This document shows, piece after piece, positions 1 to 48,810 of a DNA stretch of 53,184 nt. The position numbers and the translations under genes are program-made. Below the pieces are notes generated by a model. That model was given only the letters and a program-made list of their open reading frames with translations. It did no database searches and was not told the DNA's origin. Numbering within the stretch: position 1 is the stretch's first letter; each line of letters begins with the position of its first letter. This stretch comes from a virus: positions 1 through 53,184 of IMG/VR virus record IMGVR_UViG_3300043570_000610; one strand, given 5' to 3'.

Positions 1-561
1 CTTGATCCAAGAGTTAAAATAATTCCATTACCAGAAGATGTCGATGGCACGTTCATTAAAATATGGATGTATGGATTAGAAGACTTAGGTGATGTTCTTT
101 ACTTTGACCTTGATATTAGAATACAAAAAAATGTTGATAATTTATGGAATTATCTTGACGAAACCCCTACAATATGCTATACATATTGGAAGGACATAAG
201 TTGGGTTGACCAAAAGGCACGTTCATATAGCGAACAATATCTTAGTAATTATAATTCAAGTGCTGTTCTGTGGCGTTCTGGTAGTCCAAAAGCAAAGGCA
301 ATATGGGAACACTTTGAAAAAGATGCCGATTACTATATGATTAAATATTGGGGCGACGATAGATTTTTGTGGCATGAAGACTTTGACTTCAAGTGGTTTC
401 CTAAGGGTGAGTTTTATTCGTTTCTCTATGGTGCAGACTACTATGACCCAGAGAAGCGAGTTGTAGATAGATATCGACCAGAATATACCGTTTGTTTATT
501 AAACGGATTAGACTATTTTCCAGGATATGATAAAAAATATGATGAACTTTCTAACAATTAA
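1..561 (+). CDS. Glycosyltransferase-like protein, copy 1 (5' end outside window)
   Basis: The reading frame is open from base 1, so the N-terminus lies outside the window; 186 residues are visible. An FDLDI-type segment (visible residues about 36-40) followed by IQKN resembles the DxD metal/nucleotide-sugar site of GT-A fold glycosyltransferases. A downstream NSSAVLW segment and an aromatic C-terminal part recur in the next three genes. It is the first of four tandem paralogs, each overlapping the next by a few bases, which implies co-transcription and translational coupling. A sugar-transfer role is inferred from the motif; donor and acceptor are unknown. Confidence is high for the gene and moderate for the function. 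Confidence 0.75.
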   Translation, partial: LDPRVKIIPLPEDVDGTFIKIWMYGLEDLGDVLYFDLDIRIQKNVDNLWNYLDETPTICYTYWKDISWVDQKARSYSEQYLSNYNSSAVLWRSGSPKAKAIWEHFEKDADYYMIKYWGDDRFLWHEDFDFKWFPKGEFYSFLYGADYYDPEKRVVDRYRPEYTVCLLNGLDYFPGYDKKYDELSNN

Positions 562-1297
562 ATGGGGTGACAAATACTCATCCGATTATGTGAACAATCT
601 ATATCACATGGTAAAAAAGAATTACACAGGAGAGTTTAGATTTATTTGTTATACGGATGATGCCTCTGATTTAGAGTGCGAAGTTCACCCTATTCCAGAT
701 GATGATTTACTACATCCAAAATACTATTTCGGAAAAGAAGCATTCTGTTTTGATAGAGCCAAGTTTTTAGTTTTTAATTCAGAAGAATGGCTAGATTGTG
801 AGCCAGAAGATAAGTTCTGCTACTTTGATTTGGATATAGTAATTCAAAGTAATATTGATGAGATTGATGCTCTAGCAGAAAAGCCTCGAATAATACATTG
901 TTTGTGGCAACCAGAAAATCAAATAGATGATAGGTTGTTTATCGAGACTAGAGGCACTTTCTTTAACTCTAGTATGATGCTGTGGTCATACGGCCAATGC
1001 CAACAAATATATTATGATGTCTATGAAAATAACGAAATAGTTTTCAAAACATTTTTTAAGGGCAGTGACAACTATCATTATTGGCGTCAACGAGAATTCT
1101 GGAAAAACATTCCCGATACATGGATATACTCTTGGAACAGAGGTCGATATTATCCAGATGATGTAGTGCGTTTCGAGTTTAGAGACGATGCCAAAATCTG
1201 CCTGTTCAATACAGATAATGTTCCCCATCCATCTGCAAAACAACATGTGGAACTAGCAGAATGTAATGATAAAAATATTGTTAGGTTGTGGAAATGA
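542..1297 (+). CDS. Glycosyltransferase-like protein, copy 2
   Basis: About 251 aa. The start at 542 gives MNFLTIKWG, which lines up with the KWGTKY N-termini of the neighbouring paralogs; ATGs at 527 and 539 are alternatives. It carries YFDLDIVIQ near residues 94-102 (DxD-like), then SSMMLWS and a WIYSWNRGRYYP-like C-terminal segment. The KWG N-terminus, DLD motif, SS...LW segment and W-x-YSxN segment occur in the same order in the sister genes, which defines one family. The gene overlaps the previous one by 20 bases. Membership of a GT-A family is inferred; the phage or host target is unknown. Confidence 0.75.
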   Translation: MNFLTIKWGDKYSSDYVNNLYHMVKKNYTGEFRFICYTDDASDLECEVHPIPDDDLLHPKYYFGKEAFCFDRAKFLVFNSEEWLDCEPEDKFCYFDLDIVIQSNIDEIDALAEKPRIIHCLWQPENQIDDRLFIETRGTFFNSSMMLWSYGQCQQIYYDVYENNEIVFKTFFKGSDNYHYWRQREFWKNIPDTWIYSWNRGRYYPDDVVRFEFRDDAKICLFNTDNVPHPSAKQHVELAECNDKNIVRLWK

Positions 1298-2112
1298 GAG
1301 TAAATTACGTTTGTTGTAAGTGGGGCACCAAATATGATGTCGAGTTTGTCAATCGACTTTATCGGATGGCAAAGAAACATACCCCAGATAATTTTGAGTT
1401 TCACTTCTATTGCTATACAGACAACAGTGAAGGTTTTGAAACCGAGATTAAAGTAATAGACTTCCCAGACATTCCCGACATACATCCGAAATACTGGTTT
1501 GGATCTGAAGATTTTAAATACGGCATGGCACGTTGTTGGGACAGACCAAAGACGTTCATCTTCAATACACACAACTTCGCAGACGATAAACCAACTGGAA
1601 GATTTGTCTTTTTCGACCTTGATGTTATCATTCAAAATGATTTGTCGCCAATCATCACTTATGACCTAGAGAACCCTACTAAGTTACGTTCGTGGTGGCA
1701 AGACCCTAGACCCATGAAGTCTCGTAACTTTAAGTTGTCACATGGTGCATATACGAACGGCAGTTGCATGGTGTGGTCAGATGACCAGACAGAATGTATT
1801 TGGCATGATGTCCTAGAACACCAAGAACGTATTTGGTTTACATTCACGGACGGAACAGACAACTATCATAGTTGGCGATGGGGTGACTTTAGTAACACTC
1901 CTTTGTGGAAACATTTCCCAAGCACATTTGCATATTCATATAACAGAGGCAGAGATTGGGCACAGTGCGATTTGCAAGTAGGCATATATAGAAAAGACTG
2001 CATATTATGTGTCTTCAATGTGGACTTACTTCCGTTTCAGGACAATAAACGTGGCAAAGTGAAGCAGGAATCCTTAGTTGATCCCGATTTGTTAGAGCAT
2101 TGGAATGTTTGA
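1294..2112 (+). CDS. Glycosyltransferase-like protein, copy 3
   Basis: About 272 aa and the longest of the four copies. The ATG at 1294 overlaps the TGA of the previous gene (ATGA), and an AGG at 1283-1285 serves as ribosome-binding site; the GTG at 1288 is less likely. Visible features are KWGTKYDVEFVNRLY at the N-terminus, FFDLDVIIQ near residue 107 (DxD-like), NGSCMVWS, and FAYSYNRGRDW near the C-terminus. The order matches the other copies, but the residues differ enough that this is an old duplication or an array of diverged homologs. The predicted activity is transfer of an activated sugar; the acceptor is unknown. Confidence 0.78.
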   Translation: MRVNYVCCKWGTKYDVEFVNRLYRMAKKHTPDNFEFHFYCYTDNSEGFETEIKVIDFPDIPDIHPKYWFGSEDFKYGMARCWDRPKTFIFNTHNFADDKPTGRFVFFDLDVIIQNDLSPIITYDLENPTKLRSWWQDPRPMKSRNFKLSHGAYTNGSCMVWSDDQTECIWHDVLEHQERIWFTFTDGTDNYHSWRWGDFSNTPLWKHFPSTFAYSYNRGRDWAQCDLQVGIYRKDCILCVFNVDLLPFQDNKRGKVKQESLVDPDLLEHWNV

Positions 2113-2795
2113 TGATTAATATTTACACGGTGAAGTGGGGAACAAAATATAGTTCTGATCATGTCAATAAAATACTTGAGCAATGCAAAAAGCACATCAC
2201 TACTGAGTTTAATTTTTATTGCCTGACTGAACAAACGATTGGGTTACACTCCGACGTTATTGTAATTCCTTTTCCAGAGGGTAACTATTATGAAAAGTGG
2301 TGGAACAAATTATACTTGTTTGAGAAACAAGTTGTTACGCAACAAGGAGAGAAACTATTTCTTGATTTAGATATAGTTATTCAGCGCAATATCGATTGCA
2401 TCGTAGACCATAACCCAGAAGATGGTTTAACATTTGTTCGCACTCACTGGCACAACCTAGAGAAAATGAAAGAAGATACGAAGGATACTCCTCGTATGTA
2501 TACAGACCTAAATTCAAGCGTGTTAAGATGGAATGATAACTTAGATGTCGATAGAATAACCAAATTCGTCAGAGATTATCCTGACCAAATGTTTTATTAT
2601 TATCGGGGCCTTGATAATCTTTTCGGTCACCAGAGAGAACGCCTTTTAAATATTGATTTTTTCCCAGATGGTTGGGTTTATAGTTATAACTATGGATACA
2701 TGTGGCCAATCGATACTAGAGAACATGTTCTAAGACCTGAACCACTTATTTGTTTATTCGATTCAATGGAAAGACCACAAGATGTTAAATTATAA
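2112..2795 (+). CDS. Glycosyltransferase-like protein, copy 4
   Basis: About 227 aa. The ATG at 2112 shares its A with the stop of copy 3 (TGATG), giving MINIYTVKWGTKYSS; an upstream TTG at 2100 is a poorer start. It has FLDLDIVIQRNID near residue 84, LNSSVLRW, and GWVYSYNYGYMW in the C-terminal part, the same block order as the sister genes. It is the shortest copy, with smaller loops between blocks. It overlaps the following methyltransferase-like gene by 14 bases. The DxD-type motif supports a GT-A glycosyltransferase, but no substrate can be inferred. Confidence 0.77.
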   Translation: MINIYTVKWGTKYSSDHVNKILEQCKKHITTEFNFYCLTEQTIGLHSDVIVIPFPEGNYYEKWWNKLYLFEKQVVTQQGEKLFLDLDIVIQRNIDCIVDHNPEDGLTFVRTHWHNLEKMKEDTKDTPRMYTDLNSSVLRWNDNLDVDRITKFVRDYPDQMFYYYRGLDNLFGHQRERLLNIDFFPDGWVYSYNYGYMWPIDTREHVLRPEPLICLFDSMERPQDVKL

Positions 2796-3438
2796 TTACT
2801 TAAATAACTATCGTTACTGGGGTGAAGGATTAGAAAAGATCAATCACGAACTGCCATGGAAACATGAAGACTTTCGTAAGTCTTTAAATGCGAATACCAT
2901 GGATGCTGCTATTTGGTTAGTCGAAGAACTATTGAAAGTGAAAGATCTTCCAAAAGAACTTAACATTACAATTCTAAATTCTTGGTTAGGGTTTCCTCTG
3001 GTACCATTACTTTGTGAAAATTTAAATGTCAAAAAAATCAATTTGATCGATATTGATAAAGATGCATTAGAATTATCAAAGGTGTTCAATCGTTACTATA
3101 GTGATAGCGGTGTAGAATTGGACCACATCAATTGGGATGTTCCTTTTGCATATCACGATATTAACGCAATAAATACTGATATAATTGTTTCTATTGGTTG
3201 TGAGACTATGTATCCATTGAAAAATTTAACTACTGCAAATAAAGATTGTATCTTTGCTTGTCAGTCATCTAATGTTTTTAAAGAGATGTATGGCATTAAT
3301 TGTGTCCCAACAATTGAAGAGCATGTTGAGAATGTTGGAATTACTGATGTTTTCTACGAGGGAAAGATTGAACAGTCTTATTGGTCATGGGATGGTAAAG
3401 TAGATTTCGATAGATTTATGGTTATAGGAAGGAAGTAA
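2782..3438 (+). CDS. Class I methyltransferase-fold protein
   Basis: 218 aa. A central segment with ITILNSWLGFPL and, about 20 residues on, INLIDIDKDALEL has the shape of Rossmann-like motifs I and II of class I SAM methyltransferases: a hydrophobic strand and loop, then an acidic residue ending strand 2. The glycine-rich loop is unusual (NSWLGF rather than GxGxG). A related protein lies at the other end of the window (51396-51959) with the same architecture: an N-terminal helix, the motif I-like loop, an acidic pair, and a C-terminal F/Y-R-F/Y-M strand. It is co-transcribed with the glycosyltransferase array. Methyl transfer is inferred and the substrate is unknown. Confidence 0.6.
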   Translation: MLNYNYLNNYRYWGEGLEKINHELPWKHEDFRKSLNANTMDAAIWLVEELLKVKDLPKELNITILNSWLGFPLVPLLCENLNVKKINLIDIDKDALELSKVFNRYYSDSGVELDHINWDVPFAYHDINAINTDIIVSIGCETMYPLKNLTTANKDCIFACQSSNVFKEMYGINCVPTIEEHVENVGITDVFYEGKIEQSYWSWDGKVDFDRFMVIGRK

Positions 3439-3439
3439 T

Positions 3440-4165
3440 ATGGGAAGAGCCAGAGTTGTTGCACCACCACCCGAGGATTATATCCCAGAACCTTTAGTAT
3501 CACTTCCACCAGAGCCAGTTGAAGTAGTTGTAGAAGAGTGGGTTGACGGAAACTTCCAAGAAGAAATTATTGAAGTTGAGATTAATGAACCCTCTCAAGA
3601 AGAACTTGATAGAGAAAAAATCGCGCAAGAAAAACATGAAGAATTGCAGAGACAGAAACTTGCCGTAGTAGAAGATGCGAGAGTAGCGGAAGAAACAATC
3701 GCACGAGCAAAAGAGATTATAGAAAACCCTCCTGTGAAAATTGAGACTGTAGTTGAAACAGTTATAGAAACCGTTCATATTACAGACCCAAAATTGGTAG
3801 AAGAATTACAAGTTCTTAAAGCAGCAAATGAAAAACTTATCGAAGAAAAAGATGCGGTAGAAAAGGCAAGAGAAGACCAGATTGTAAAAATGCGCCAACA
3901 AGCAACAGACAAGCAAGTCAGTCAGTTGAATATGGTGCAGGCAAGAAAACCTACTTTACTTAGTAAAGTAAAAGATTTCTTTCGACGCAGAAGAATCAAA
4001 CTTGCTACCGTTTCTCAGGCGAACTACGAACAGGCAATTATCTACCAAGCATCTGTTGCTGTTCCAAAGATGCTAGACGAAATTGAAAAGATGCATGAAA
4101 GTTTGACTATCTTAGAAGAACTTCTAGCGAAAAACAAAGAACGTCAAAAGATTAAAGTTCGGTGA
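3440..4165 (+). CDS. Coiled-coil protein of unknown function
   Basis: 241 aa with a good ribosome-binding site (AGGAAG about 7 bases before the ATG at 3440). The N-terminus is Pro/Val/Glu-rich (PPPEDYIPEPLV). Residues about 50-165 are a long Glu/Lys/Gln-rich helix with heptad character, probably a coiled coil. A basic patch (KDFFRRRRIKL) follows near residue 185 and a second helix ends the protein. It closes the + strand operon and overlaps the 3' end of the convergent oxygenase-like gene by 14 bases. It could be a structural or scaffold-like protein; I do not recognise a family. Confidence 0.65.
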   Translation: MGRARVVAPPPEDYIPEPLVSLPPEPVEVVVEEWVDGNFQEEIIEVEINEPSQEELDREKIAQEKHEELQRQKLAVVEDARVAEETIARAKEIIENPPVKIETVVETVIETVHITDPKLVEELQVLKAANEKLIEEKDAVEKAREDQIVKMRQQATDKQVSQLNMVQARKPTLLSKVKDFFRRRRIKLATVSQANYEQAIIYQASVAVPKMLDEIEKMHESLTILEELLAKNKERQKIKVR

Positions 4166-4799
4166 AATCTACACCCGTAATATCTTCAACCATTGATTTC
4201 CAGAGGTCCTCATGAGGAACGACATAACCGAGAGTGAGGCGCTTGCTGCGGCTACCAGCACAGTGATAGAAGACCTTATCGGCCTCGCTACGCCTACCGA
4301 AGTAGCCGACCTTGACCGACCATCCCTTGGGGTCCCAAAGAGTGACCATTTCTTTTGTTATTGGATCTAGATATCTAAAGTAGCCGCCATTCTCTTCTGT
4401 ATTATAAGAAAGAAGAATGTTGTGGCCGCTTGCATTCCAGTTTGTGTGCCAGCCCATAAATCCATTTTCTGGATAATAAACATGAACCGCATTGTTCTTA
4501 GCGCCAAGAAACGAAATTAATTCACGATTGAGTTTCTGTTGCTTTTCGCGGTGAGTGGTAGGAACAGTATCTACCATTCCGATATCACAACAGAAAGCAG
4601 TTTCTGGATAGCCTTCATGCTCTCCATCTTTGCTGACAATTTCATTCATATACTTTTCAGAAGTGCCGGTGTCGATATCAAATTGTCGGCGTCTATCCGG
4701 CTCTCTCAATTTGTCATGGTCGGTTTGTGAGAAGAACCAATCCGTATATGGTGTAAGGATTTCCAGAAGTTCTGGATTTATGTTACTGGAAACTTTCAT
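4152..4799 (-). CDS. 2OG-Fe(II) oxygenase-like protein with atypical HTN motif
   Basis: 215 aa. The C-terminal half reads like a double-stranded beta-helix oxygenase: YYPENGFMGWHTNW (H118, N120), a central LLSYNTEENGGYFRY strand pair, KVGYF, then FYHCAGSRSKRLTLGY with H179 and R187, the usual third iron ligand and 2-oxoglutarate-binding Arg. The expected HxD is HTN here, so the acidic iron ligand is replaced by Asn. That could mean altered metal binding, a halogenase-like arrangement or loss of activity. It is the last gene of the fibre operon, sharing one base with the upstream glycosyltransferase. This suggests a role in modifying virion proteins (inference). Confidence 0.6.
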   Translation of the reverse strand: MKVSSNINPELLEILTPYTDWFFSQTDHDKLREPDRRRQFDIDTGTSEKYMNEIVSKDGEHEGYPETAFCCDIGMVDTVPTTHREKQQKLNRELISFLGAKNNAVHVYYPENGFMGWHTNWNASGHNILLSYNTEENGGYFRYLDPITKEMVTLWDPKGWSVKVGYFGRRSEADKVFYHCAGSRSKRLTLGYVVPHEDLWKSMVEDITGVDFTEL

Positions 4800-5497
4800 T
4801 ATTTGTCTCTAACCCACGGTGGTAATGTATAGTGATAGATGACAATCTCTTGTCCCTGTAATTCTTCTTCTTTGTATCCAATTACAAAATTCCATCTTGC
4901 ATCAGGATCTGGAAACCTGCCCGTTCTAACACCAGTATTTCCATATGTCAATAGGCGCCACATTGTAAATGTGTCCCACTGCATTGCATCTGCTGGATAA
5001 TGTTGCCGGTCGTAGCCGGGTTCATTCTGACTACAATATTCTCCCCACCAAGAACTCATTAGTTTCAGTGTCTGTATATTATTACGGTATACAAAAAGAC
5101 CACAATGCTCGGTCATTTCTTCAGTCTCAGATAACTTTGTAAGAGCCGCGTTATATGGCCGATTTGCAGTAAACAAAACGTCTACATCATCTGGAATCTG
5201 ATTAAAGATTTTTTGAATGTCTTCGTGCCGAACTTCTGTATCACAGTCCATATAAACTGTCAAGTCATAAGGTGTTTTATCTAAAGCCCACAGCTTGGCT
5301 CTCTTATGATATGGAACATCATCTGTAATGACATTTTCAAAGATGTCATAGTCTTCTGGTTCCACCCATTCTGCATGAGTGAATAAAGTAATCTTTGCTT
5401 CTGGCCAATAGTCTAGAAGAGACAACGCCGAATTCTTAGCAGCGCGGTAGTAGCCTCTGCGTAAAGATGCTACGTAAACAAAACCATTATTTTCCAT
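4799..5497 (-). CDS. GT-A glycosyltransferase, family-8-like
   Basis: 232 aa. GFVYVASLRRGYYRAAKNSA at the N-terminus followed by YPEAKITLFTH-like strand order, and LTVYMDCDTEV with D84 and D86, match the nucleotide-sugar-binding strand and DxD metal motif of GT8-type (retaining, GT-A fold) transferases. It is unlike the four paralogs at 1-2795 outside the DxD. It overlaps the upstream hypothetical gene by 11 bases and the downstream oxygenase-like gene by one base. It is transcribed directly after the tail-fibre genes, so virion decoration is a plausible role; DNA or host-surface glycosylation are alternatives. Confidence 0.7.
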   Translation of the reverse strand: MENNGFVYVASLRRGYYRAAKNSALSLLDYWPEAKITLFTHAEWVEPEDYDIFENVITDDVPYHKRAKLWALDKTPYDLTVYMDCDTEVRHEDIQKIFNQIPDDVDVLFTANRPYNAALTKLSETEEMTEHCGLFVYRNNIQTLKLMSSWWGEYCSQNEPGYDRQHYPADAMQWDTFTMWRLLTYGNTGVRTGRFPDPDARWNFVIGYKEEELQGQEIVIYHYTLPPWVRDK

Positions 5498-5960
5498 CGC
5501 TCAATGCTTCTTCTGACTGAATCAACATAACGGTATAAGCCATAACTTCAAGCGCAGACTTTGATCTGCGTATCTTGGTCTTTAATGGCTTGTTGGTAGA
5601 ATTCTTGATAGTAGCAATTTCAAATGCTTCTAGTTTAGCCTCAAAAAGAGCCTCATCTTTGCGGCGTTGTTGATCTACCTTAGAGCGTTCCATGCGCTGG
5701 CGAACTTCTTCGGAGCGGCGCTCTTCTCTGCGACGAGTGTTCTCATCAATCTGTTCTTCGGTGAACTTTTCCATAATAGCAATGTAATCTGGATTATTGC
5801 CCTCACCCGACACGGATGCGGGCAATCTCTTACCATCTGGATAGATGATAATAACCATTACTTGCTTTAGTTCTTTATTTAACCAAAAGGGTTCGTCGTA
5901 GTCTTTAGTTTCTACTACTTCACCCGACGGTATAATTACCGTATCTTCATCCACAATCAT
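5487..5960 (-). CDS. Conserved phage protein of unknown function
   Basis: 157 aa with a GGAGAG ribosome-binding site just upstream of the ATG at 5960. The N-terminal half is beta-like and acidic (MIVDEDTVIIPSGEVV, with a DEPFWLNKE turn). Residues about 65-115 form a highly charged Glu/Arg-rich helix (RRREERRSEEVRQRME). The C-terminus is a basic patch plus a hydrophobic helix. It sits between the fibre gene and the glycosyltransferase in one operon. It might be a fibre-assembly chaperone or attachment protein because of its position; the sequence alone does not show this. Confidence 0.6.
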   Translation of the reverse strand: MIVDEDTVIIPSGEVVETKDYDEPFWLNKELKQVMVIIIYPDGKRLPASVSGEGNNPDYIAIMEKFTEEQIDENTRRREERRSEEVRQRMERSKVDQQRRKDEALFEAKLEAFEIATIKNSTNKPLKTKIRRSKSALEVMAYTVMLIQSEEALSDGK

Positions 5961-6004: not shown

Positions 6005-7312
6005 TTAAGCGGTACGAATCCAAAGAGATACTGTTGATACTGTATCTTTAGTTGCTTGAATTGTATCGCCTGCATATGTGCCAGAATATGTTCCAGTATA
6101 AGTTCTGCTACCAGCATATGCACCGGTGTATGTACTTGAACCGGCAAAACTATTTGCATACGTACCAGAGTAAGTTCTGGAGCCAGAATAGTTCGCAGAA
6201 TATGTTCTGTCACCAGCAAATGCGCCAGCAAAGTTTGTCGCCGCCGAAACATAGCCCGCGTTAGCATATGTTCTAGTACCAGCAAACGTGCCGCCAACGA
6301 AACCACCAAAAAAGCGAGTATAGCTGGCTGAATATGTTCGTGATCCCGCAAACGGTCTAGTGCCAGAGAAGTTAGTCACGTAAGAACCCGTATATGTTCT
6401 AGTTCCGGAATACGTTGTGCTGTAAGTTCTGGTACCAGAAAAAGTATTTGTGTATCCCGCTGGTGTATACGTTCTAGTCCCAGCATATCCTACGTTAGAA
6501 TATGTTCTAGTACCACCATAGTCGCCGGTATAGTTTGCAGATGCGACTTGCTCACGGGTATCAGAAGCTGAACCCATGCTAACCCAAGTACCAGGAGATG
6601 GCGATGATGCTTGGATCTTATATGTACCAACACTGGTGCTGATAATACGATTTCTGAAATAAGGAATCATTTCCTGAATTTCAGTATCGGTCATTTGCTT
6701 TACGTTATTGCCGCTGTATGTCTTTAGTGGGCGAAGATCGGCATCAGGCGATGTTGTGGCCGCAGTCTTCTGCCAAATATAATAAGTTGTGTTGCCACCA
6801 TTTGCAACATCGGTAATGGTGTATCGTGAGGTCCATGTACCGCCACTTGGCGCCGAACCAGCAAGACGATACTGACCTGCAGTATACTCTGATTCAGTAA
6901 CCATTGCTGTTACCGCTTGGTCAATAATATCATTGCGGATCTGAGCATCTGTCATTTGCTGAATTGCAGCGTCATATTGCAGCGGACGATTTGTTATTGT
7001 ACCTGCATCTTCAGCAGTAATTTGCTTTGCATAATACGTTACAGTGGTTATAGCACCAGTAGCAGGGTGTGTGCCAGTCGCTTCGTCCCGATCTGTATCA
7101 ACAAATGTGCCGATTGCGGTACCAGAAAGTGCGTTTGCTGTATCAATATTGAGGTCGGCGGTGTTAGAACCATTACCTACTGCACCGGCAAATCCTACTG
7201 TGATCTTATTAGCAATATAATTTTTAACTTCCGCATTTGACATGGTTTGCAAACCCTGAAAGTTTGCAGAAGTAATCGGTGTAGTAGATGCTTTGAGCTT
7301 TAAAGGGTTCAT
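6005..7312 (-). CDS. Repeat-containing tail fibre protein
   Basis: 435 aa. The N-terminal half holds three imperfect modules, each beginning with a helix of the type MSNAEVKNYIANKIT, MTDAQIRNDIIDQAV or MTDTEIQEMIPYFRNRI followed by beta segments. Residues about 258-418 are a tandem repeat built on G(T/S)RTY(S/T) with a 9-14 residue spacing, rich in Gly, Thr, Tyr, Ser and Ala; this looks like a repetitive beta fold such as an elongated fibre. The short C-terminus ends SLWIRTA. It lies at the distal end of the baseplate block, next to modification enzymes. Fibre or receptor-binding function is inferred from position and composition. Confidence 0.7.
   Translation of the reverse strand: MNPLKLKASTTPITSANFQGLQTMSNAEVKNYIANKITVGFAGAVGNGSNTADLNIDTANALSGTAIGTFVDTDRDEATGTHPATGAITTVTYYAKQITAEDAGTITNRPLQYDAAIQQMTDAQIRNDIIDQAVTAMVTESEYTAGQYRLAGSAPSGGTWTSRYTITDVANGGNTTYYIWQKTAATTSPDADLRPLKTYSGNNVKQMTDTEIQEMIPYFRNRIISTSVGTYKIQASSPSPGTWVSMGSASDTREQVASANYTGDYGGTRTYSNVGYAGTRTYTPAGYTNTFSGTRTYSTTYSGTRTYTGSYVTNFSGTRPFAGSRTYSASYTRFFGGFVGGTFAGTRTYANAGYVSAATNFAGAFAGDRTYSANYSGSRTYSGTYANSFAGSSTYTGAYAGSRTYTGTYSGTYAGDTIQATKDTVSTVSLWIRTA
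6050..6540 (-). repeat. Degenerate tandem repeat encoding GTRTY motifs
   Basis: Within the fibre gene, the + strand shows recurrent blocks such as TATGTTCTAGTACCA, TAAGTTCTGGAGCCA and TATGTTCTGTCACCA at intervals of roughly 30-45 bases, at least a dozen times. They encode the G(T/S)RTY repeats. Synonymous and non-synonymous differences between copies show that the array is not recent, but its structure could permit slippage and length variation. Confidence 0.75.
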
Positions 7313-8043: not shown

Positions 8044-11000
8044 TTATACCTGAAGAGCTATTGCGCGAAGTTCGCGGCATTTTGGAACAACACTAGTTTT
8101 GTCCGAAAGAAGAACTACCTTAACTGCAAAAGTTTTGTAGCCAGTATAAGTCACACCGTCAGTTGTATATTCCAATACACCATCACCATTCAATTCCGTT
8201 GATGGAATATCATATGTATACTCAACAAAACTGGAAGAAGTAACTGTGGGTGGAGTAGTTGTTAATTCAATCCACTCTTTTTCTTCAAACGGGGCTGGGT
8301 CACTTTGATGTAGGAATCTGCCATATACCTTTACGTCTGTTCCATTTGGAACATACTGACTTAGATATACTCTAAGGTCTTCTGCTTCCTGTCCATCATC
8401 TAGAACAACTTGACGAGAAACATATTTCGATCTCGCATCACCGATACCAAATTCTTCATCGGCCGCATCATTATTAACATCGTTTGCGATTGCAATCATA
8501 GAACATTTTCTAAGATCAATAACAGGCGAAACAGTAGACGTTTGGGATCTCATACCAAGTTGAATTTTAAACGACTTGTCTCCATCGAGATCGTTTTGCT
8601 CATTTGAATATGAACGAATAGCAGCATCGATGGTCAATTCCGTCGTTTTATCTGGCACAAAATTCTCATATGTTGTCGATGCTTCTGTTTCGGAACCAGT
8701 ATTTGTCGTGGCAGAATATGAAAAAATGAGTTGGCATGGAGTATGATCCATATATGCAAGATTGGCACCCAATGCATTCAACACTTTATCTTCAAGTTCT
8801 GCTATTAGAGCATGAGAAGAGCCGTTGCCTACTCGGTCGTTTACAGCGAAGTTTCCGCTCTCAACATAGATCTTAGCAACGTTGTATAGAGTATCGTAAG
8901 TATGAGCAAAGCCGGAATTGAGAGTAGCACCGATATTTGCATTCGATCCACCAGTCATAGTCAAAGTTGGATTGCTGGTGTATCCAGCGCCGGGATTTGT
9001 CACTGCTACATTAGTCACTGCGCCACCGGTAACAGTAACTGCAACCGTAGCATTCGTTCCGCCCGTGGCTATTCCACCACTTAATGTGCGGGCGACAACT
9101 GTTGCAACTGTGTATGTTAGACCTGTTAGCGTGCCAGCAGTAGTTACAATTGCAACATCAGCTTGAGTTGTTAGTGTGAATCCAGTAACAGCGCCAACCG
9201 AACCTGTAACAGCAGAAACCTTATAGACAGTTCCTGTGGCATACCCAGATATTGTAGCAGTACCACCCAGAGTACCAGTGATAGTTATAAGATCACCAAC
9301 AACAAGTTTCGAAGCACCGCAAGTAAACTGGCCTGCAGTTCCAGAAACAGCCACAGTAGCAACAAGGGCACTACCATAACCAGTGCCTGCGTTGATTATA
9401 TTAAACGAGAATCCATGAATTTTATCACCAGGAGAAAATTCAGAACTTGAGAAAGAATCAAATTTTGCGTAATCGATATCATGTGTATTCAGTGCGACCG
9501 TACCAGTTGTGTCGATTTCAAAGTTTGCTCTCTGTAAACTAAACTTAATATCTTCTGCCTGCCATGCGGTCCAAGTTCTGTTGTTCGCAGATGTGAATAA
9601 AACACCGACATTAGGCTGTTCTGAAATACGAGTTGTTGTGTTGAGTTGGTCTTCGCCCAATTCAGACACCCAAATTTCATAGTTAGGGTCATTACCCGCA
9701 GGAAGAAGAACAAAACAATATTCAGTATTGTTTTGCAAGAATACTGGCGACGGGAAAGTAAACTTAGTTGACGTAGCACCATTTTCGGCATCGATGTTTA
9801 CCTGACCAGGAGATAGTGTTACTTCACCAAAAGGAATTACTCTATCACCCGGATAACCATTTATGACTTCGCGGAGTTGCATCGTGATAGGATTTGTCAA
9901 AGATTTTTTCTTAAAGAAAACATCCAGTGAGGTCACATAACATCCAAACGGCACTTCCGAAACTATAAACGTCTGAGCGATTGGATCCATTCTCCAGCGC
10001 ATAAAGTCTGTTGGGAATATAAAGTCATCAAATACGACTTCTGCTGCCGGCTGAACAATCGGCGAAGGGTCAGGAGCAGTTGGCGGAGTGACATTAGTTA
10101 CCTCAGTGACGTTATTAGTTACCTGAGTGATATTCGTATTATTTACTTCCTGAGTTACCTGAGTAACTTCTGTAACATTTGTGGTGTTATTAATTGTTGT
10201 AAATGTATTATTTACAACTGTTGTTTGAACAACACCCACTGCTCTTTCACCAAGACGATTTACCGTGGTATTGCTATCAGAAACCGATCTACTATCTGAG
10301 AGATTCACTGCTGCCACGTTGGCAACTCTTGTCGAGATTACAGTATCTTGGACACTTTGTGATAAACCATTTGCAGAGAATGTCATTGATGCAGAGGTAG
10401 TAATAAACTTAGCTCTATTTTTAGAATCATCTGCAAGTCTGAATAGCTTTTCTCCAACACGGAAAGTACCAGCAGGAATTCTGAATTGACCAAAGCATTC
10501 ACCCGATGCATTCGTGATTAGCGGATCGCCATAATCACCAGTTGCTAGGGATGAGTTTTGAACAGAATTTGTTGTGCCACTAACAATACCAGACAGTGGA
10601 CGACAATGATCCTCAACAGTAGCGCCATCAAAGAATGGATAAACACGAGAAAGCGGCTTCATTCTCGTTGCTTTAAACGTTACTATAATAGAACGCATAA
10701 ACGGAATAATAGAAGTATTTGTTACTCTAGGACCAATTCTCTGAGTTTGCGTTTCCGGTGTTACCGAGAGTTGGACGCCTTGGCGAGTTTGTCTTTGTTC
10801 TGTTGTAGTCGTTACAATAGCAATATCTTCTTGGAAAAGAGTATCGCCTCGTATTGCAGTGTTACCTGCCGCAGCCTGTGTATTTGTAGAAACTCTACCA
10901 GTTCCGGTATCTTGCCAATCTTCCCACTGGGTACCCCATGCATCGGCAAGAGTTTCCCATGCATCATAGTTACCATCAAAGTTAGCAGAAATATCAGGAA

Positions 11001-14000
11001 GTGTTGCGGTATCGGTCCAGTTATCGACTGGTGGGTCAAGTTCCATATCACCGATATATGTGAACAGAAGTTCACCGGTGCAATTACGGAACTTAGATGC
11101 TTGCAACTGGCTTATCATCGTATATTCTACATACGGCAGTGTCAGTAGATCACCAGTTTTTGTAATGTTAGTGGAGTTTGTTGAATCGTATTGTAGATCC
11201 ACATTTTCCATAAAGAAAAATGGACGCATTTCTTTTGCGGTAGGATCGATAGCAATATGGTATTCATTACTTAAAACATTACCAACATTATGACCAGTGA
11301 AAGCATCCACAAGAATACCATTCTTGAAGCGGTCTAAGCCATTGGTATCTGTAATGCTTAAATCACTGGCAGATTTTTCCAGTAGATTTAGAGATGTATA
11401 ATATTCAAGTCGATTTAGTCGCTGTTCTAATTGGCCGATATCCCGCATTGTATAGCGACGATTATCAATCGATTTATACTTAACGCCATAGTCGGTTCTA
11501 CTCACCGACTTAGCAACGCTGGGTGCCAGCGAAGGATATGGAGGAATATCCACAATCGCAATAGACAGAGAATTCTCTGGTTCTATCGGTTCAACGGGAG
11601 ATAAGGAAGAGACACCATATACAGAGGAGAATACACCCTCGTCGTCCATAACAATTCTATCTTTACGTCCTAGATAATACTCAATGTCTGTAGTAAATTG
11701 TTCTGTCGGGAAAGGCGTAATAATTGCAAGACCAGTAGGACCACTTGGTGAAGAACCTACTGCAGGATTAACTGTCGCTGAGCCAGGACTTGTAGTGAAT
11801 GTAATAGTATCATCCCAGCGAGGACGAAAATCTAGTGTGTCGCGAAGATCATATGTGACCCCGGAGGTTGTAGAGGTATAAATTGGAATTTGTTCTGTGC
11901 GAATTTTACCCGCAGGTGTCGTTTCGTCATCTACAGGATATGAATCAACAGTGTAGAAGTTGTATACAGTAGATGGAGAACCGCCATGAGTAAAGTAGTC
12001 AAATGTCACAACCAACTTTTTGTCTGTTAGCGTAAGACTTGTACCCGGCTTTTTTACAATTCTGGCGTTTGCGTAGAAGCCGTCTCGTTGACCAGTATCG
12101 AAGTTGAACAGCGAAGTTACATCTGTTCCGTCTGCCTGAATATCTGCCGCGGTCTCATCGAAATCACCAATCTTTACCGTGCGAAGTTTGTAACCATCAG
12201 ACGCACCCAAATTATATGTGCCTGTAGTGTTGCCACTATCTTCGGTATCCAGAACAACTACTGCGCTTTCTTTAAGTTCCTTAGTTACTTTATTTGCGTT
12301 AGCAACTTGTACCTTACAGTGAACGCGAATGTTTGTGGCCGCGCTGATTGCTCCAGGGAAAGTTACTGTAATCTGTGTTCCGGTATTAGTTACAGTTACA
12401 CTAGCAGTAGATTGTAGATTTAATACTGAACCTATTTCATATGCCACACTATTAATAGTGCAAGCGGCTTTTGTGGTAACAATAATATTATCAAGAATTT
12501 CTGTGTTAGTCAGTGTTCCAACTGTAAACGGAAAACTCTCGGGTGAACTTACCGAGAATGTAATAGTGTTGCTGCTATCAATAGTGTCATCAAACTGTTT
12601 GTTGTAGACAAAACTATTGTCAACCGAAACAGGATTTGTAGTCTTTAATGCTCTAGCAGGAAACTTGAAAAGAAGGCTGTTGAACTTACTCTCGTATAGG
12701 TATGCTTTACTATCTACCAGAACAACGTTTGCATGGCCGTCGGCGGTTGTATCGTAGTAAACGCCCGCAACATCTTCAAAGTTATATGAAGATGTCATTT
12801 GAATGTCGTAGAGATACATACGGAATTGCGTATTATATGCGCCAGGTGTACCAGTCTCGTGAACGATATGACGAACTCTAGCTGTGCCGATTTGTGATCC
12901 TGGTGCCGCCGTGGCAGATTGTGTGCCACCCGTTGGAGAGCCGGATGTGCCAATCGCATTCGCGGCGGTGTCACGAAGAGACACTGTATCCCCGGCTGCA
13001 ATATCCCAGTTACCGCAGAAGTTGTCAACTAGAATATAGCTACCAAATGCAGTAGAGATAGGAACTTCATTTACAACCTTAGTTGTATTTCCTTTTGGAA
13101 CAACTATATATTCTGTTTGTCTGGTTTCGTATGCATAACCGCGAACATATGCTTTACCGGCTTCGATACCAATTGCTAAAAGCGTCTCATCACCGCCCGC
13201 TGCGGGGGTGGTCGCATTGTATGGTATTAGACCATTATTAGTTCCTGTGTCAAGGTGTTCTTTGATTAAAATAGGAAACGCTTTTACAGTATAGTTGCCC
13301 GATTCATCGAAAGTGCGTTTTGCAAGATTGCGACCAAGGTCTGCATAAATGCGGTCTTCGCTCACAACATTTTGTAACTTACCACCAACAATTGATATAT
13401 ACTCTGAGAAACCGTCGTCTGGCGTGGCATCTAGCGCATATTTTGCAAGAGATGCTGTTGTTACATATCTATCGGCACCAGGCGCTGCATAGTTAAATGT
13501 ACCCTGTGCAGGATCCAAAAGATCGGGGTCAGTTTCATGTGTAACAATACTTTCTACAATCTCGAACCCAACTCTAAAGTAAGGGTATGAATTATATTTT
13601 AGTAGTTCGAGAGTAGTTTTAGTAAAAGGAAGAAACTTACCATCTAGAAAAATAATACCATCATCTAGAGTTACGAATGACCCTCTACCATAATAATAAT
13701 TACCTTCTTCGAAAGTATCATCAACTACAAAAGTATCAGTAACTTGATCGCCGGTTTCAGATTCTATTACACGAATTGTTTCACCTGGAGAAAAGTGAAC
13801 TGCGTCCGTCGATCCATCGCCCGTAAGATATCTCAAATAAAGTGTGTTAAGATCAGGTGAGTCAGCTTCCGAGCCGCCGCTGGCATAAATAATTTCTGCT
13901 TGTATCGAAGATGTTAAGCCAATTACTTTAGCCCCAACATAATCTTCAATATTTTCAATCAAAAATCCAGAAGCATCTTCGTCAAGGACTTTAATGAAGT

Positions 14001-19496: not shown

Positions 19497-21362
19497 TTAA
19501 GTTCCGATTATATTGATTGTTGTGCCTGTGATATAATTTCCCGTACCTGAGATTGTAGAAGTATCTTGTGCTAAAACCAAATTCTTATTTGCATACGCGG
19601 TGACCGCATACGTATAGGAAATATCCTCATTTACTGGTGCCATAATGATGTCCGGTGATGAACCTTGTGGCTTAATATAAATTCTAAGATAAAAATCCGT
19701 ACCAGAAATAGTATTAATATATAAACTAGGTATCAAGATTTTACCTGTTTGATACTCTATTGTTCCTACGGCAGTTGATATCAGGACATTAGTATCATCA
19801 TACAAATCTAATACACCCGGCAGCGAATCATCTTCGGTATAACTATCTCGTAGATAACATGTCACTTCTTTACCCGATGGTAATATCGTGGTAAAAAGGT
19901 TTGATCTTACACTATTGGGGGTGATTGTAGTATTATATGCAAATGAAATTCTATTATTTTCGGCCGTGAATGGCTCGTATGCTCTATGCAGATTCATTTC
20001 TATATTAGTGGCATAGATAGAAGTTGAAACAGAATTTAATAATTCTAACAATTCTGAATAGTAAAAGTTCTTTTTTACTTTAGAAGTTGTATTTACAAAA
20101 TAACTCGCCAAGTATTCAGACATAGTATTCTGAATAACGGAAGCAGACACAGATGTATTATTTTTTAAATATCTGGCTGTTATGTTAAGGCTAATATAAA
20201 GATATGAAGGATCCACAAATACTGGCTGGATTCCAACTACACCTCTAGGCTTTAGAATGTCCCGTGCAATAGATGTCTTATCGGATTCCGTGATAACGCT
20301 ATTTGGTAGAGGCTCAATTGAAACGAAAACTTTACCATAGATAGGAGGGTCATTATCTTCTCCGCCCCAAACAGTTATCGAATTGATGTTGGCGTATTGA
20401 CTCTCAATTAGTGCTGTATAGTCCTCGGCAGTCACGGCTCTATTCTTTGTGGCGTTGAATTTAGGAGCAATATAGCGTATCGAATCTGTTGTCTGTGCCG
20501 CTGCTCCGCCATATGATGCTGCACTTGAAACAGAAATTGTTTCTCCTGTCCCAAGAATTACAGACTTTGCTGTTAATGTTGTAATGCCATTAGCACCAGC
20601 GCCGCCGCTTACGAGATAATCTATAGTAACAATATTACCCGTTGTTAATTTTTTACCCAAAACGTTGTCGCCAAAACGGACTTCAACTAATGCATTTGCA
20701 TTTTCTTCAACAAAGAATGCTCTTGTAGTTCCTGTGAGAGAAACTATGTTCAGTTCTTGAACAAACGTTTGCATCTCTAATTCACTTGTTGATGTCTGGA
20801 CTTTACATGTTACAGTAGACGTATCGACATTTGTATTTAAAAGTTCAAATGGGCCCGATTCCGTATCTGCGGTAACAGTAAAGAAGTTATTAGTTCTTAC
20901 GCCTTCAACCAGAGTTGCAACGAATGTGAAAGTTCCGTCTGCTTTTATCGCAGTAATATCGTCTTCAGGATAAAATGTATACGTAACACCATCTGAGCCA
21001 ACTCCTCTAAACCCTATATTTTTACTTATAGTAGCCACGCTTGATGTATAAGAAAGCGGCGGAGTTATAGTAATAGTGGCATCAACTCTGGCGGAGCGAA
21101 TTGAGCGAGGATTATATCCAAGAGATTTAGAAATCGAGACAACAGACGATCTTTTTACCGCACTGTCAATAAACATTTCGTTTGCAAGAAGATGCGCGAG
21201 AGTGGCGTTATAGTGAGTATTGTATGCAAGAATATCAATTAAAACCGACAGACCAGAACCATCAAAGTTGTAGTCCGCAAACTCGGTTTGACTTTGTAGA
21301 TATGTCTTTAGATTTTCTCTAATACCAAAAAAATCTAGTTCGGTAACATTTAATTGAGCCAT
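19497..21362 (-). CDS. 6: Baseplate wedge subunit gp6 (baseplate J-like)
   Basis: 621 aa. The N-terminus (FDGSGLSVLIDILAYNTHYN, LLANEMFIDSAVKRSSVVS, KSLGYNPRSIRSA) is diagnostic for T4 gp6. The baseplate J-like core follows, including FFVEENANALVEVRFGDN and the RYIAPKFNATKNRAVTAEDY segment. gp6 dimers form the inner baseplate ring, contact gp25 and gp53, and drive sheath contraction. It starts one base after the gp25 stop and its stop lies four bases from the gp7-like start, as in a tightly coupled wedge operon. No anomaly seen. Confidence 0.93.
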   Translation of the reverse strand: MAQLNVTELDFFGIRENLKTYLQSQTEFADYNFDGSGLSVLIDILAYNTHYNATLAHLLANEMFIDSAVKRSSVVSISKSLGYNPRSIRSARVDATITITPPLSYTSSVATISKNIGFRGVGSDGVTYTFYPEDDITAIKADGTFTFVATLVEGVRTNNFFTVTADTESGPFELLNTNVDTSTVTCKVQTSTSELEMQTFVQELNIVSLTGTTRAFFVEENANALVEVRFGDNVLGKKLTTGNIVTIDYLVSGGAGANGITTLTAKSVILGTGETISVSSAASYGGAAAQTTDSIRYIAPKFNATKNRAVTAEDYTALIESQYANINSITVWGGEDNDPPIYGKVFVSIEPLPNSVITESDKTSIARDILKPRGVVGIQPVFVDPSYLYISLNITARYLKNNTSVSASVIQNTMSEYLASYFVNTTSKVKKNFYYSELLELLNSVSTSIYATNIEMNLHRAYEPFTAENNRISFAYNTTITPNSVRSNLFTTILPSGKEVTCYLRDSYTEDDSLPGVLDLYDDTNVLISTAVGTIEYQTGKILIPSLYINTISGTDFYLRIYIKPQGSSPDIIMAPVNEDISYTYAVTAYANKNLVLAQDTSTISGTGNYITGTTINIIGT

Positions 21363-40482: not shown

Positions 40483-40533
40483 TACAACTATTTAGCATTC
40501 ATAGGTTCTTACATCACTCATTTCATCGTATAT

Positions 40534-40847
40534 ACAGAACAGGTAATAGTTTTATTCTGTTTCGAGGGAAAACTATCAAAAACCCAATGAGATTATGCGG
40601 CTAGCGCATATCCTGCAAAGGCAACGTTATCGTTTGCATTTACGTTTTGTGGCACTTTGCCAAGCAATCAGTCTCGAACCGCCCTATTACACGAAAATCG
40701 ATATCCAGGTCACCCCCATCAACTACCAAGTGCCGAATTACATACGCAATTCCCGTGCCAAGCAAACTAAACACTTGATAGATGGTGGAGGTGCGGGGAG
40801 TCGAACCCCGGTCTTTCCGCCTTTATTGTTGATTGTCAACAACTGAT
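40534..40847 (-). ncRNA. ssrA: Permuted two-piece tmRNA
   Basis: On the - strand the acceptor piece comes first: CGGGG-TTCGACT-CCCCG T arm, then CACCTCC-ACCA ending at 40783. A 65-base spacer follows (40782-40718) whose ends pair (CTATCAAGTG with CACTTGGTAG). Next is the coding piece from 40717: GGGGGTG pairs with CACCTCC, leaving a G3-U70 wobble, the alanine identity element. ACCTGG-type D-loop sequence, a PK1-like stem (TTGGCAAAGTGCC) and the resume region AAACGTAAAT precede the tag (40637-40596) ANDNVAFAGYALAA with stop TAA. TTTTCG in the coding piece pairs with CGGAAA of the acceptor piece. tmRNA rescues stalled ribosomes and tags proteins for proteolysis. Permutation is typical of alphaproteobacteria. 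The 5' and 3' limits are approximate. Confidence 0.93.
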
Positions 40848-40853
40848 AATCTA

Positions 40854-40882
40854 TATATAAGACATAAGTCCTTATTTGTCAA
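40854..40882 (-). promoter_or_regulatory. Sigma70-type promoter for tmRNA
   Basis: TTGACA (40882-40877), 17-base spacer, TATATA (40859-40854) on the - strand, giving a start near 40847, right at the acceptor piece. The -35 box overlaps the end of the exonuclease gene. It is not a T4-late-type promoter. Confidence 0.75.
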
Positions 40883-43301: not shown

Positions 43302-44735
43302 TTATGAAAAGACTTTCACGCCATATTTCGCTTCAAAATCATCAGCATCTTTAAAGTTATTCACCATCGGCATACCCTTGATATTGAGACTTGTATTCAA
43401 TAGCATTGGACAACCAGTTTCTTCATACCACCTACTAAGAAGGGCATATAGTCCCGGGTGTTGCTCTTTTGTCACAGTTTGGACGCGAGATGTCCCATCA
43501 GCATGAACAATAGCAGGAAACTGATCAGGATATTTACATCTTGAAGTATATTGCATATAAGGGGAGTCTTCCCATGACATTTCAAAGTAGTCTCGCGCAC
43601 GTCCTGCCAGAATGACTGGAGCAAATGGGCGAAATTTTTGACGCTTTTTAATAGCATTTACTTTATCCTTAATGTCATGACCTCTTGGATCAGCTAGAAG
43701 GCTGCGATTACCTAATGCTCTAGGGCCGAATTCTGCTTGACCATTTGCAACACCTACTATACCAGTCTTATGCAATTCTGTCAAGAGTTTTTCTACCGGA
43801 TATTCTCCTCCCATATCTGCGCCGAGATATGGACCCTTCCATTTCAATTTTTGTCTGTTGTTAGCTGCAATCGCACCCAAGGAACTTCCTGCATCACCCG
43901 GATTTGGCATAATCCAAACGTTCTTGAAGTATTTTCTAGCAAGATGATTTGCAGAACAGTTTAACGCACAGCCACCCATAAGAACAAGATTATCTTGTGC
44001 GGCATCTTTCATTTTTGCTCGTATCAGAAGTTTTTCGAATTCTTCTTCATAGACTTTTTGAGTTGCCGCAGCGACACTATAAATGTCCAGGTCTCCGTCA
44101 TCTGGCCGCCACCAGCGACATCCACGATGCAGGTTCTCAGATTTCCAAAGATTTTTTACTTCATCATAATACTTTCCAGGATCACCATATGCTACCATTC
44201 CCATTAAGATATATTCGTCTTCATTGGGCTTTAACCCAATTCTATCTGTCATAGCAGAATAGAACAGACCCAAAGACTTAGGATAGTCCATAGACCATTT
44301 CTTTTTGAGTTTACTACCAGAGCATTTCCAGATTGACGCAGTATCGAATTCACCGATAGCATCAATAACAAGAGCGGTTGCATTATCATACGGCGAAGTA
44401 TAGAAGCCAGCCGCGGCATGTGATTCATGATGAAATGCAAATTCTACCGGAATATCTTTTAGTCCGAAAGCAGCAAGATATTGTCTAACGCTAAATCTAA
44501 CCATGCCCTGACCCGCAAGCAATCGTCTCATAGCTCTAAGTTTAGGTTTTTCATACCAGTGAATTTTTTCTGGTTTACCAAACATCAATGCCGCGCGAAT
44601 TAAATCTACATTCAAGTCTTTGTCATTTTTGATACCCGAATACCGTTCAGCATGAGAAGCAAATAAAATTTCACTTCCATCAACTACTGTCAAAGATGCA
44701 TCATGTGCTGCTGCGGATATACCCCATTCAATCAT
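43302..44735 (-). CDS. NodU/CmcH/TobZ-type carbamoyltransferase
   Basis: 477 aa. MIEWGISAAAHDASLTVVDG, FHHESHAAAGFYTSPYDNAT, LVIDAIGEFDTASIW and GLFYSAMTDRIGLKPNEDEY form the Kae1-like N-terminal domain. GGCALNCSANH, the EFGPRALGNRSLLADPR motif and KFRPFAPVIL mark the C-terminal half, as in NodU-type O-carbamoyltransferases. These enzymes move carbamoyl from carbamoyl phosphate, via carbamoyl-AMP, to a hydroxyl group on a sugar or nucleoside. Members of the family have been reported to carbamoylate 5-hydroxymethylcytosine, so a DNA-modification role is possible, as is sugar decoration. The ATG overlaps the 34-aa gene by 8 bases. Confidence 0.85.
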   Translation of the reverse strand: MIEWGISAAAHDASLTVVDGSEILFASHAERYSGIKNDKDLNVDLIRAALMFGKPEKIHWYEKPKLRAMRRLLAGQGMVRFSVRQYLAAFGLKDIPVEFAFHHESHAAAGFYTSPYDNATALVIDAIGEFDTASIWKCSGSKLKKKWSMDYPKSLGLFYSAMTDRIGLKPNEDEYILMGMVAYGDPGKYYDEVKNLWKSENLHRGCRWWRPDDGDLDIYSVAAATQKVYEEEFEKLLIRAKMKDAAQDNLVLMGGCALNCSANHLARKYFKNVWIMPNPGDAGSSLGAIAANNRQKLKWKGPYLGADMGGEYPVEKLLTELHKTGIVGVANGQAEFGPRALGNRSLLADPRGHDIKDKVNAIKKRQKFRPFAPVILAGRARDYFEMSWEDSPYMQYTSRCKYPDQFPAIVHADGTSRVQTVTKEQHPGLYALLSRWYEETGCPMLLNTSLNIKGMPMVNNFKDADDFEAKYGVKVFS

Positions 44736-44876: not shown

Positions 44877-46232
44877 TCAATTCAATGTCTCGCAGTTTGC
44901 TCCAAAACCTATGACCCGAGTTTTTTCTGGTAACAATTTAATAAAACTTTTATACCTAGCTTGTGTTTCTTTTAGACCATAGTATCCATTGCTGAAATCA
45001 GTGCAAAATATATTAGAGATGTTAATTAATCCATTTTCAGATAGATGTGAACAAAGAGTTTCGGGAGAATTGAATAAATCACATTGAACAAAAACAACAT
45101 TACTTTTTCTAAATTCTTCAATCAATTTATTAAAGTTTTCTTCTCCGCCGAAATACGAAACAGTTCGCTGATAACTCTCCAGAAAATCTTTAGTGAATTC
45201 TCCTGATTCCGTAAAAACCTGTCCACCGAGACATTTAAATGTTTTTTTATGTGGATACTCCTGCATTAATTGCAATGGATTTTTATTACTGTGCATTAGA
45301 GTTTCAATCCACTGAATACTTTTTGGATTGAAGTCATATATCACAATTTTACCATCCTGCTTCAGTTTACCCCGATGTAAAATTTCTAAAAACTTGAACC
45401 CAGCGGCGGGAAACGCAGCGAAAGAATATTGCTTATTATTAAAATCAATTTTTATTTCTTCACTATTAAGAACCCAAATTTGATCAGAAAAGTTTCGAAG
45501 AGTATTAATAAAACGAATTTGATTGGGATTGGTAACTCCACAATTTCGTAATTCTTTTAGTGATTGTAATAGTTCATTGCCGTTATTCTCTGGGTAATAA
45601 TATGTCCGCTTGGATCGTATCGTGTCATTCCAATTACCGATTTCACAATTACCACGACTAGAAGCATTAAAGTAATTCCATCCCTGCTTGGTATGCTTCT
45701 GCGGTTTATATTCACCAGTATAGCGAATCCACAACGGTGTATAATCGTCATGGAAATTTTCTTCGCTTCTTTCTACAACCGGCAGTTCTTCAATTTTCTG
45801 TTCCCATGCACCATAACTTGGTTTACCACATTTAATCCAGTTGCGGCTATTAACTAACACAAACTGATGATGTAGCTCGTACCAATCTTCTTTCCATTCT
45901 AAGATGTGCCCGAACGCCATGTAGTTGGGACTGGAAAGTATTTCTTCTCTGATCTCAAAGAGGATAGACATGTCATAGATGCGAACACCCGCTGCCATAA
46001 ACAAGATATTCTTGTAAGTTCCGTGATACTTTGACATACCATCATCGATACTATCACATTCTAAAATTGATAATGTATTTTCGCGCCGCGCCAGTTGGTT
46101 AAACCTGAGCGCATAAAACTTAGTATACTCAACCATTCTTTTTGCAAGTTCTTTATTTTTAATCGTCTCAGTCGGAAAAATGCAAATTGCTAAATCTACA
46201 TCGTTGACAAAATTACCTTGCACGATATTCAT
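44877..46232 (-). CDS. Two-part protein with methyltransferase-like C-terminus
   Basis: 451 aa. The N-terminal half (residues about 1-230) has KNILFMAAGVRIYDMSILFE, MAFGHILEWKEDWYELHHQF and LVNSRNWIKCGKPSYGAWEQ, conserved-looking blocks that I cannot assign. The C-terminal half contains FAAFPAAGFKFLEILH and GKIVIYDFNPKSIQWIETLM, the second resembling strand 2 of a SAM-dependent fold, then LGGQVF. It overlaps the hydroxylase gene by 4 bases (ATGA). It has homolog-like features of marine phage and cyanobacterial proteins of unknown role. It probably works with the radical SAM and 2OG enzymes of the operon. Confidence 0.65.
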   Translation of the reverse strand: MNIVQGNFVNDVDLAICIFPTETIKNKELAKRMVEYTKFYALRFNQLARRENTLSILECDSIDDGMSKYHGTYKNILFMAAGVRIYDMSILFEIREEILSSPNYMAFGHILEWKEDWYELHHQFVLVNSRNWIKCGKPSYGAWEQKIEELPVVERSEENFHDDYTPLWIRYTGEYKPQKHTKQGWNYFNASSRGNCEIGNWNDTIRSKRTYYYPENNGNELLQSLKELRNCGVTNPNQIRFINTLRNFSDQIWVLNSEEIKIDFNNKQYSFAAFPAAGFKFLEILHRGKLKQDGKIVIYDFNPKSIQWIETLMHSNKNPLQLMQEYPHKKTFKCLGGQVFTESGEFTKDFLESYQRTVSYFGGEENFNKLIEEFRKSNVVFVQCDLFNSPETLCSHLSENGLINISNIFCTDFSNGYYGLKETQARYKSFIKLLPEKTRVIGFGANCETLN

Positions 46233-46906
46233 AGTATTTCTCGTAAAAGTTCAGCGGGATTTGTAGTAAGTTTACCATGAATAATAATATGGTAACGATA
46301 TTCGTCGCTATCGTTGATAACAGCGTGTTTCTTACCAATGTCAAGTAAAAAACCAGAACCTTGCTTAAACGGAACAACGCCATGTCCTTCTATCACAAAC
46401 TCACAACCTTCTGGGTTATTAATCGCAAAATTAAAAGGTCCGAAGATTCTTCCGATACCATCTGTATGTGGCATAATATATCCCTGAGGACTCATTCTCA
46501 TGATACGAATTCTACCGTAATCTTTAAATGGTAGCGAATCAATTAGGTTTTTTGTCAATGGTAATTTCTCACAGACAGAAGTCCATTTATAGTTTGCTTC
46601 TTCTTCGCTGCTAAATCCATACCGATCATAATTTTCAGTTTTGTCGTAATCGATACCGTGCACCGTTAGCGAGTACCAACCCTCGTGACCATAACTTTCA
46701 ATTTTATCTTTTGCTCTGTGTTCTACAAAAAGTTCGCTAACAGCAGATAACTCTGCTATAATTTCATTGTAGTTATGAGTTCCTGTTGCGTTTACTTGCG
46801 ACCAGGGCCAATCTGTTTCCCACAGATTATTCGGAAACGTATTGGGATAATTCCATTGCTTCTTTTTGTTTTCTGTAAGAAAGTTGATCAGTTCTGTGTT
46901 AGACAC
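46229..46906 (-). CDS. Aspartyl/asparaginyl beta-hydroxylase-like 2OG oxygenase
   Basis: About 225 aa from GTG 46906, just past the upstream stop; a TTG at 46954 would add 16 residues but overlap it by 46 bases. RIRIMRMSPQGYIMPHTDG gives H147 and D149, IFGPFNFAINNPEGCEFVIE the beta core, and KKHAVINDSDEYRYHIIIHG H194 and R204. This is the full HxD...H...R set of 2-oxoglutarate/Fe(II) oxygenases of the Asp/Asn hydroxylase family, so it should be active, unlike the HTN protein at 4152-4799. The substrate may be a peptide, an amino acid or a radical SAM product. Confidence 0.82.
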   Translation of the reverse strand: MSNTELINFLTENKKKQWNYPNTFPNNLWETDWPWSQVNATGTHNYNEIIAELSAVSELFVEHRAKDKIESYGHEGWYSLTVHGIDYDKTENYDRYGFSSEEEANYKWTSVCEKLPLTKNLIDSLPFKDYGRIRIMRMSPQGYIMPHTDGIGRIFGPFNFAINNPEGCEFVIEGHGVVPFKQGSGFLLDIGKKHAVINDSDEYRYHIIIHGKLTTNPAELLREIL

Positions 46907-46908
46907 AA

Positions 46909-48809: not shown

Positions 48810-48810
48810 A

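Follow-up and report, generated by a model that had tools for sequence, protein, structure and literature searches.

The left end of the 53 kb virus record analysed here (the window, 53,184 nt) is occupied, from nt 1 to 2795, by four adjacent and overlapping paralogous genes on the + strand, c1–c4, which we class as GT8-like GT-A glycosyltransferases and not as GT8 members, and which are found in relatives in fixed number and order beside the tail-fibre genes. We propose that several non-redundant enzymes glycosylate the tail fibre or another virion protein, a reading to which we give a probability of roughly 0.55. The record carries T4-type baseplate wedge and hub genes; among the matches listed, the top-scoring relative of the wedge protein (nt 19497–21362) was from the Pelagibacter phage HTVC008M (35% identity, 293 bits).

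According to the ORF calls, c1 (nt 1–561, paralog 1) has lost its N-terminus at the contig edge, the complete c1 of relatives being approximately 222–228 aa long. Its end is overlapped by c2 (nt 539–1297; paralog 2, defined by ORF, homology, alignment and tree), the start of c3 (nt 1294–2112; paralog 3, defined by ORF, homology and model) overlaps the c2 stop codon as ATGA, and the start of c4 (nt 2112–2795, paralog 4) shares one base with the c3 stop codon, a pattern as in translationally coupled operons. The same operon includes a methyltransferase-like (Rossmann) gene (nt 2782–3438, + strand, start uncertain), weakly similar to a Mosig methyltransferase and without significant match in a Pfam search, and the + strand run is closed by a variable, charged, probably coiled-coil protein (nt 3440–4165), identified from the ORF and its relatives. 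Two conserved neighbours follow on the − strand: an ORF conserved in relatives (nt 4152–4799), 2-oxoglutarate-oxygenase-like by eye inspection only, and a fifth glycosyltransferase-like protein (nt 4799–5497), weakly matching PF00535 (E = 0.016), for which homology to c1–c4 was not detectable.

The four adjacent paralogs of the original prediction are real. With c3 as query against the whole record, the other three copies were retrieved at E = 1.2e-49 (39%), 2.8e-18 (31%) and 1.0e-7 (27%, partial), a paralogy far beyond chance, and no fifth copy was found. In an alignment of 39 rows, the positions invariant in all copies include K-x-G-x-K-Y, C-x-T, K, D-L-D, Q, W, N-x-S, G-x-D, Y-S and R. The D-x-D metal-binding motif (D108-L-D110, c3 numbering) is kept in all four copies and in their relatives, so that the loss of the acidic pair, named beforehand as an outcome contrary to a glycosyltransferase assignment, did not occur; K86 and K9-x-G11 likewise do not vary among the aligned copies or in the cellular relatives, which come from Rhizobium, Neorhizobium and a Kiritimatiellaeota MAG. 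The ordered blocks described as common to the copies do exist, but not all of them are present in each copy: the N-terminus of c1 reads KYG and not KWG in relatives (this stretch falls outside the window), the N-S-S..W block of c1, c2 and c4 is N-G-S..VW in c3, the IQxN block reads IQND in c3, and the W preceding YS is absent from c1 and c3. The copies diverge most from the third strand to the D-x-D region, where c2 and c3 carry inserts. Decayed copies were ruled out, the core residues being invariant and nonsynonymous change being well below synonymous in all copies.

Neither Pfam nor NCBIfam gave a credible family for any of c1–c4, a c3 match to EhRGS-RhoGEF_PH-like (E = 6e-4, 25 residues) being below the cut-off and taken as chance; PDB sequence searches gave no significant match, and tblastn with c1 and c3 against named phages found no relative. 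In PHROGs, a glycosyltransferase family was retrieved for c4 (PHROG 1962, E = 4.6e-9) and weakly for c1; c2 and c3 remained unmatched. Unlike the array, the PHROG 1962 members found in named phages are single genes and not four paralogs. The c4 model, which was built first, was moderate (pLDDT 69, Z up to 10), and the AlphaFold2 model of c3, obtained with a broader alignment, reached a pLDDT of 85.5 and a pTM of 0.88. The latter has a GT-A fold, with GlyE as the closest structure (Z 16.9, 3.0 Å, 209 residues, full-length alignment), followed by LgtC (Z 16.2), WbbM (16.0), UGGT (15.9), glycogenin (15.8) and LARGE1 (15.6); models of viral glycosyltransferases resemble it as well. Structure prediction, the check that had been suggested, thus recovered the fold strongly in c3 and more weakly in the c4 model, c1 and c2 following by homology, and the absence that would have spoken against the assignment was not observed. 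With the GT-A fold, the invariant D-x-D and the PHROG family of c4, the glycosyltransferase identity is well supported, and the enzymes are probably metal-dependent.

The relation to GT8 (CAZy GT8, PF01501, including GlyE, LgtC, the GT8 domain of WbbM, glycogenin and LARGE1) is more distant. The full-length GT-A fold of c3, the D-x-D and an Asn/Ser motif before a hydrophobic strand are in common, but identity is 11–15% and the curated cut-off of PF01501 is missed: no window copy matches in Pfam, and of the 37 proteins in the alignment, 8 give a match with E no higher than 0.1, the best of them, a Neorhizobium relative (E = 2.6e-4), scoring 21.1 bits versus a cut-off of 24.3. Moreover, a C-terminal His of the cellular relatives (F-H-G-x-P; c3 position 242) is replaced throughout the aligned rows by Asn in c1–c3 and by Asp in c4, possibly a changed metal ligand, although the register against the GT8 H-x-x-G-x-x-K-P-W motif or WbbM is uncertain, for which reason an argument on the third metal ligand was reduced to this remark.

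For c3, scans of viral contigs retrieved 441 related stretches, and for c4, 203. By profiles of the four copies, the order c1-c2-c3-c4 on one strand was found in 171 of 215 fetched loci, many of which are overlapping fetches from a shared contig (82 distinct arrays after duplicate removal). Most of the remaining loci hold contiguous part-arrays (c2-c3-c4 in 20, c3-c4 in 15), the pattern expected of loci ending at a contig edge, though these were not checked one by one. Four contigs of 97–172 kb have exactly four copies each, with no additional copy elsewhere in them. Contrary to the suggestion that the array may extend to the left, c1 comes first in every case for which sequence upstream of it was read, and tail-fibre genes on the opposite strand precede it, so that the array starts at c1. 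Amplification, as originally put forward, is a misleading description of the present state, since the copies are fixed in number and in order and each belongs to an old clade of its own; the constant order in 171 loci and the four copies of each large contig indicate an old, fixed set and not an ongoing amplification. In one relative (L148), a 496-residue gene (nt 3496–4986, + strand) lies between c2 and c3; its N-terminal part weakly matches the transferase family, without D-x-D, and its C-terminal part is cysteine-rich.

In the tree each copy forms its own clade, c2 and c3 being sisters, joined by c4 and then by c1. A single clade of c1–c4 was not rejected (p-AU 0.20), but a phage-like relative in L149 may group beside c1. 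In most comparisons the synonymous differences approach saturation (0.5–0.9). Measured against the window, nonsynonymous proportions within the main lineage are 0.035–0.061 for c3, and those of c1 and c2 are approximately 0.19–0.28 when allele classes are compared, indicating a far stronger constraint on c3; indeed, c3, the most constrained copy, is almost frozen, and c1 and c2 are split into deep allele classes. In the 82 arrays, the protein distances of c2 (nt 539–1297, + strand) track those of the convergent genes at nt 4152–5960 (− strand) at 0.85–0.90, and those of c4 do so poorly (approximately 0.3–0.65). Between c2 and these convergent genes stand c3, c4 and the methyltransferase-like gene. 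The tracking may reflect either lineage history plus exchange of c4 or functional coupling, and the co-segregation of c1 and c2 alleles with the convergent genes was set aside as evidence because it may be lineage history.

The tail-fibre genes found in relatives directly upstream of c1, on the opposite strand, comprise an L-shaped fibre assembly gene (E = 3.5e-23), a long-tail-fibre distal N-terminus and an Mtd_N fibre, and the gap between fibre gene and c1 is usually of 48–55 bases. All 40 distinct intergenic gaps carry TATAAATA, the T4 late promoter box, oriented toward the fibre gene. Toward c1, a score of 7 out of 8, typically TATAAAT(C/T/G) about 32 bases ahead of the start, was observed in 36 of the 40, as compared with about 20% of shuffled gaps (8 of 8 in 1–2%). 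Over the whole window the count of late boxes is at chance, and the weight therefore rests on their conservation at the fibre–c1 gap. Read in this way, the boxes suggest that the array is expressed late together with the fibres.

On these grounds, c1–c4 would be four non-redundant, probably metal-dependent glycosyltransferases, expressed late from a single operon of overlapping genes. Most likely they would act in succession, the methyltransferase-like neighbour perhaps contributing, so that a virion protein receives a short glycan; the most plausible acceptor is a tail fibre encoded by the adjacent genes. Donor sugars would be taken from the host; no NTP_transferase family was found in the four large contigs, and a gene of the Epimerase family is present in two of them, distant from the array. 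In the virus S20, a relative is surrounded by glycosyl-, sialyl- and methyltransferase genes, the whole block adjoining head-closure and tail genes. Two occurrences count against a virion acceptor: the Mosig relative is near ribonucleotide-reductase genes and not structural genes, and the distant homolog in XacN1 is ORF373, which is neither of the two transferases discussed by its authors, who link the virion glycoproteins of that phage to other transferases (PMC5852040). The glycoproteins themselves nevertheless make XacN1 a precedent for a glycosylated virion. A parallel in gene content is offered by the mycobacteriophage Corndog, where an O-methyltransferase, two glycosyltransferases and a GlcNAc-transferase lie within the structural operon and capsid modification was proposed (PMC4351075); as here, several transferases and a methyltransferase-like gene are found among virion structural genes, but the Corndog block adjoins the portal and not the fibres, and does not consist of four paralogs.

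Among the alternatives, the one that survives best, though we regard it as improbable, is that c1–c4 modify the host envelope (lipopolysaccharide or another surface glycan) during infection, for example blocking superinfection or the re-adsorption of progeny to debris. It would fit the cellular relatives in Rhizobium and Neorhizobium and the presence, among the closest solved GT8-like enzymes, of LgtC and WbbM, which act on bacterial surface polysaccharides; however, likeness of fold says nothing on the acceptor, the late-type boxes are common to the array and the fibre operon, and no membrane or flippase partner was noticed in the operon.

DNA glucosylation is known in T4-like phages, whose alpha- and beta-glucosyltransferases are, like c1–c4, phage-encoded sugar transferases, and it is conceivable, if quite unlikely, that the array similarly glycosylates modified bases of the phage DNA and so evades restriction. 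The window does contain carbamoyltransferase and radical SAM genes, and in one relative, G004, a TET/JBP-family oxygenase adjoins a transferase related to the beta-glucosyl-HMC-alpha-glucosyltransferase (locus L226, nt 10813–12500, − strand). These two genes are likely a DNA-modification pair apart from the array. The oxygenase is present in one of five records, beside a transferase of another family, whereas the array is present in all five, and in one genome the nearest relative of the T4 enzymes is a separate gene. Furthermore, the thymidylate-synthase/hydroxymethylase family (PF00303) was absent from four relatives, including the 172 kb contig, and the C5 DNA methylase family (PF00145) from five records, with the proviso that these records may be incomplete. 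A DNA acceptor is thus less likely than a virion one.

Equally doubtful is a parallel action on the virion, with each paralog serving a different acceptor protein or site instead of one step of one chain, as might be read from the very unequal evolutionary rates and from the divergent, insert-bearing region before the D-x-D, since overlapping junctions and fixed order, while not decisive, are more typical of one pathway.

If glycosylation of the virion by c1–c4 is correct, it would be a regular trait of an abundant group of aquatic phages, matched by hundreds of environmental stretches, while few cases of glycosylated phage structural proteins are known; with its four fixed enzymes next to the tail fibres, the array provides a defined, testable gene set. 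A more specific version, speculative and on the whole unlikely, would be that T4-like aquatic phages have a four-step, fibre-linked pathway: c3 would form an invariant core linkage, and the alternative allele classes of c1 and c2 would provide a strain-specific sugar decoration of the fibres, by which attachment, or evasion of the host's surface defences, is adjusted.

Other features of the window deserve mention. Near the array, a 435-residue protein (nt 6005–7312, − strand), with a similar protein in L149, has a C-terminal half made of a Y/S/T/G-rich imperfect repeat (YSGTRTY-like) and is a possible glycan acceptor. A Nol-like carbamoyltransferase (nt 43302–44735, − strand) might possibly decorate sugars, and the cluster at nt 46229–51355 (− strand), with three radical SAM proteins, of which two have SPASM, a protein of the Asp/Arg beta-hydroxylase family and one further gene, has the appearance of a locus for the modification of peptides or small molecules. 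A phage-encoded permuted tmRNA is present at nt 40502–40878 (− strand; Rfam tmRNA_permuted, E = 4.9e-19, and alpha_tmRNA; ARAGORN tag ANDNVAFAGYALAA), a hint that the host is an alphaproteobacterium; against named phages, only a 41-base piece of it was matched, in 18 Caulobacter phages and one Ruegeria phage record. Finally, the C-terminal piece at nt 52747–53184 (− strand) belongs to PHROG 35576 and resembles, by eye, a class III adenylate cyclase domain.
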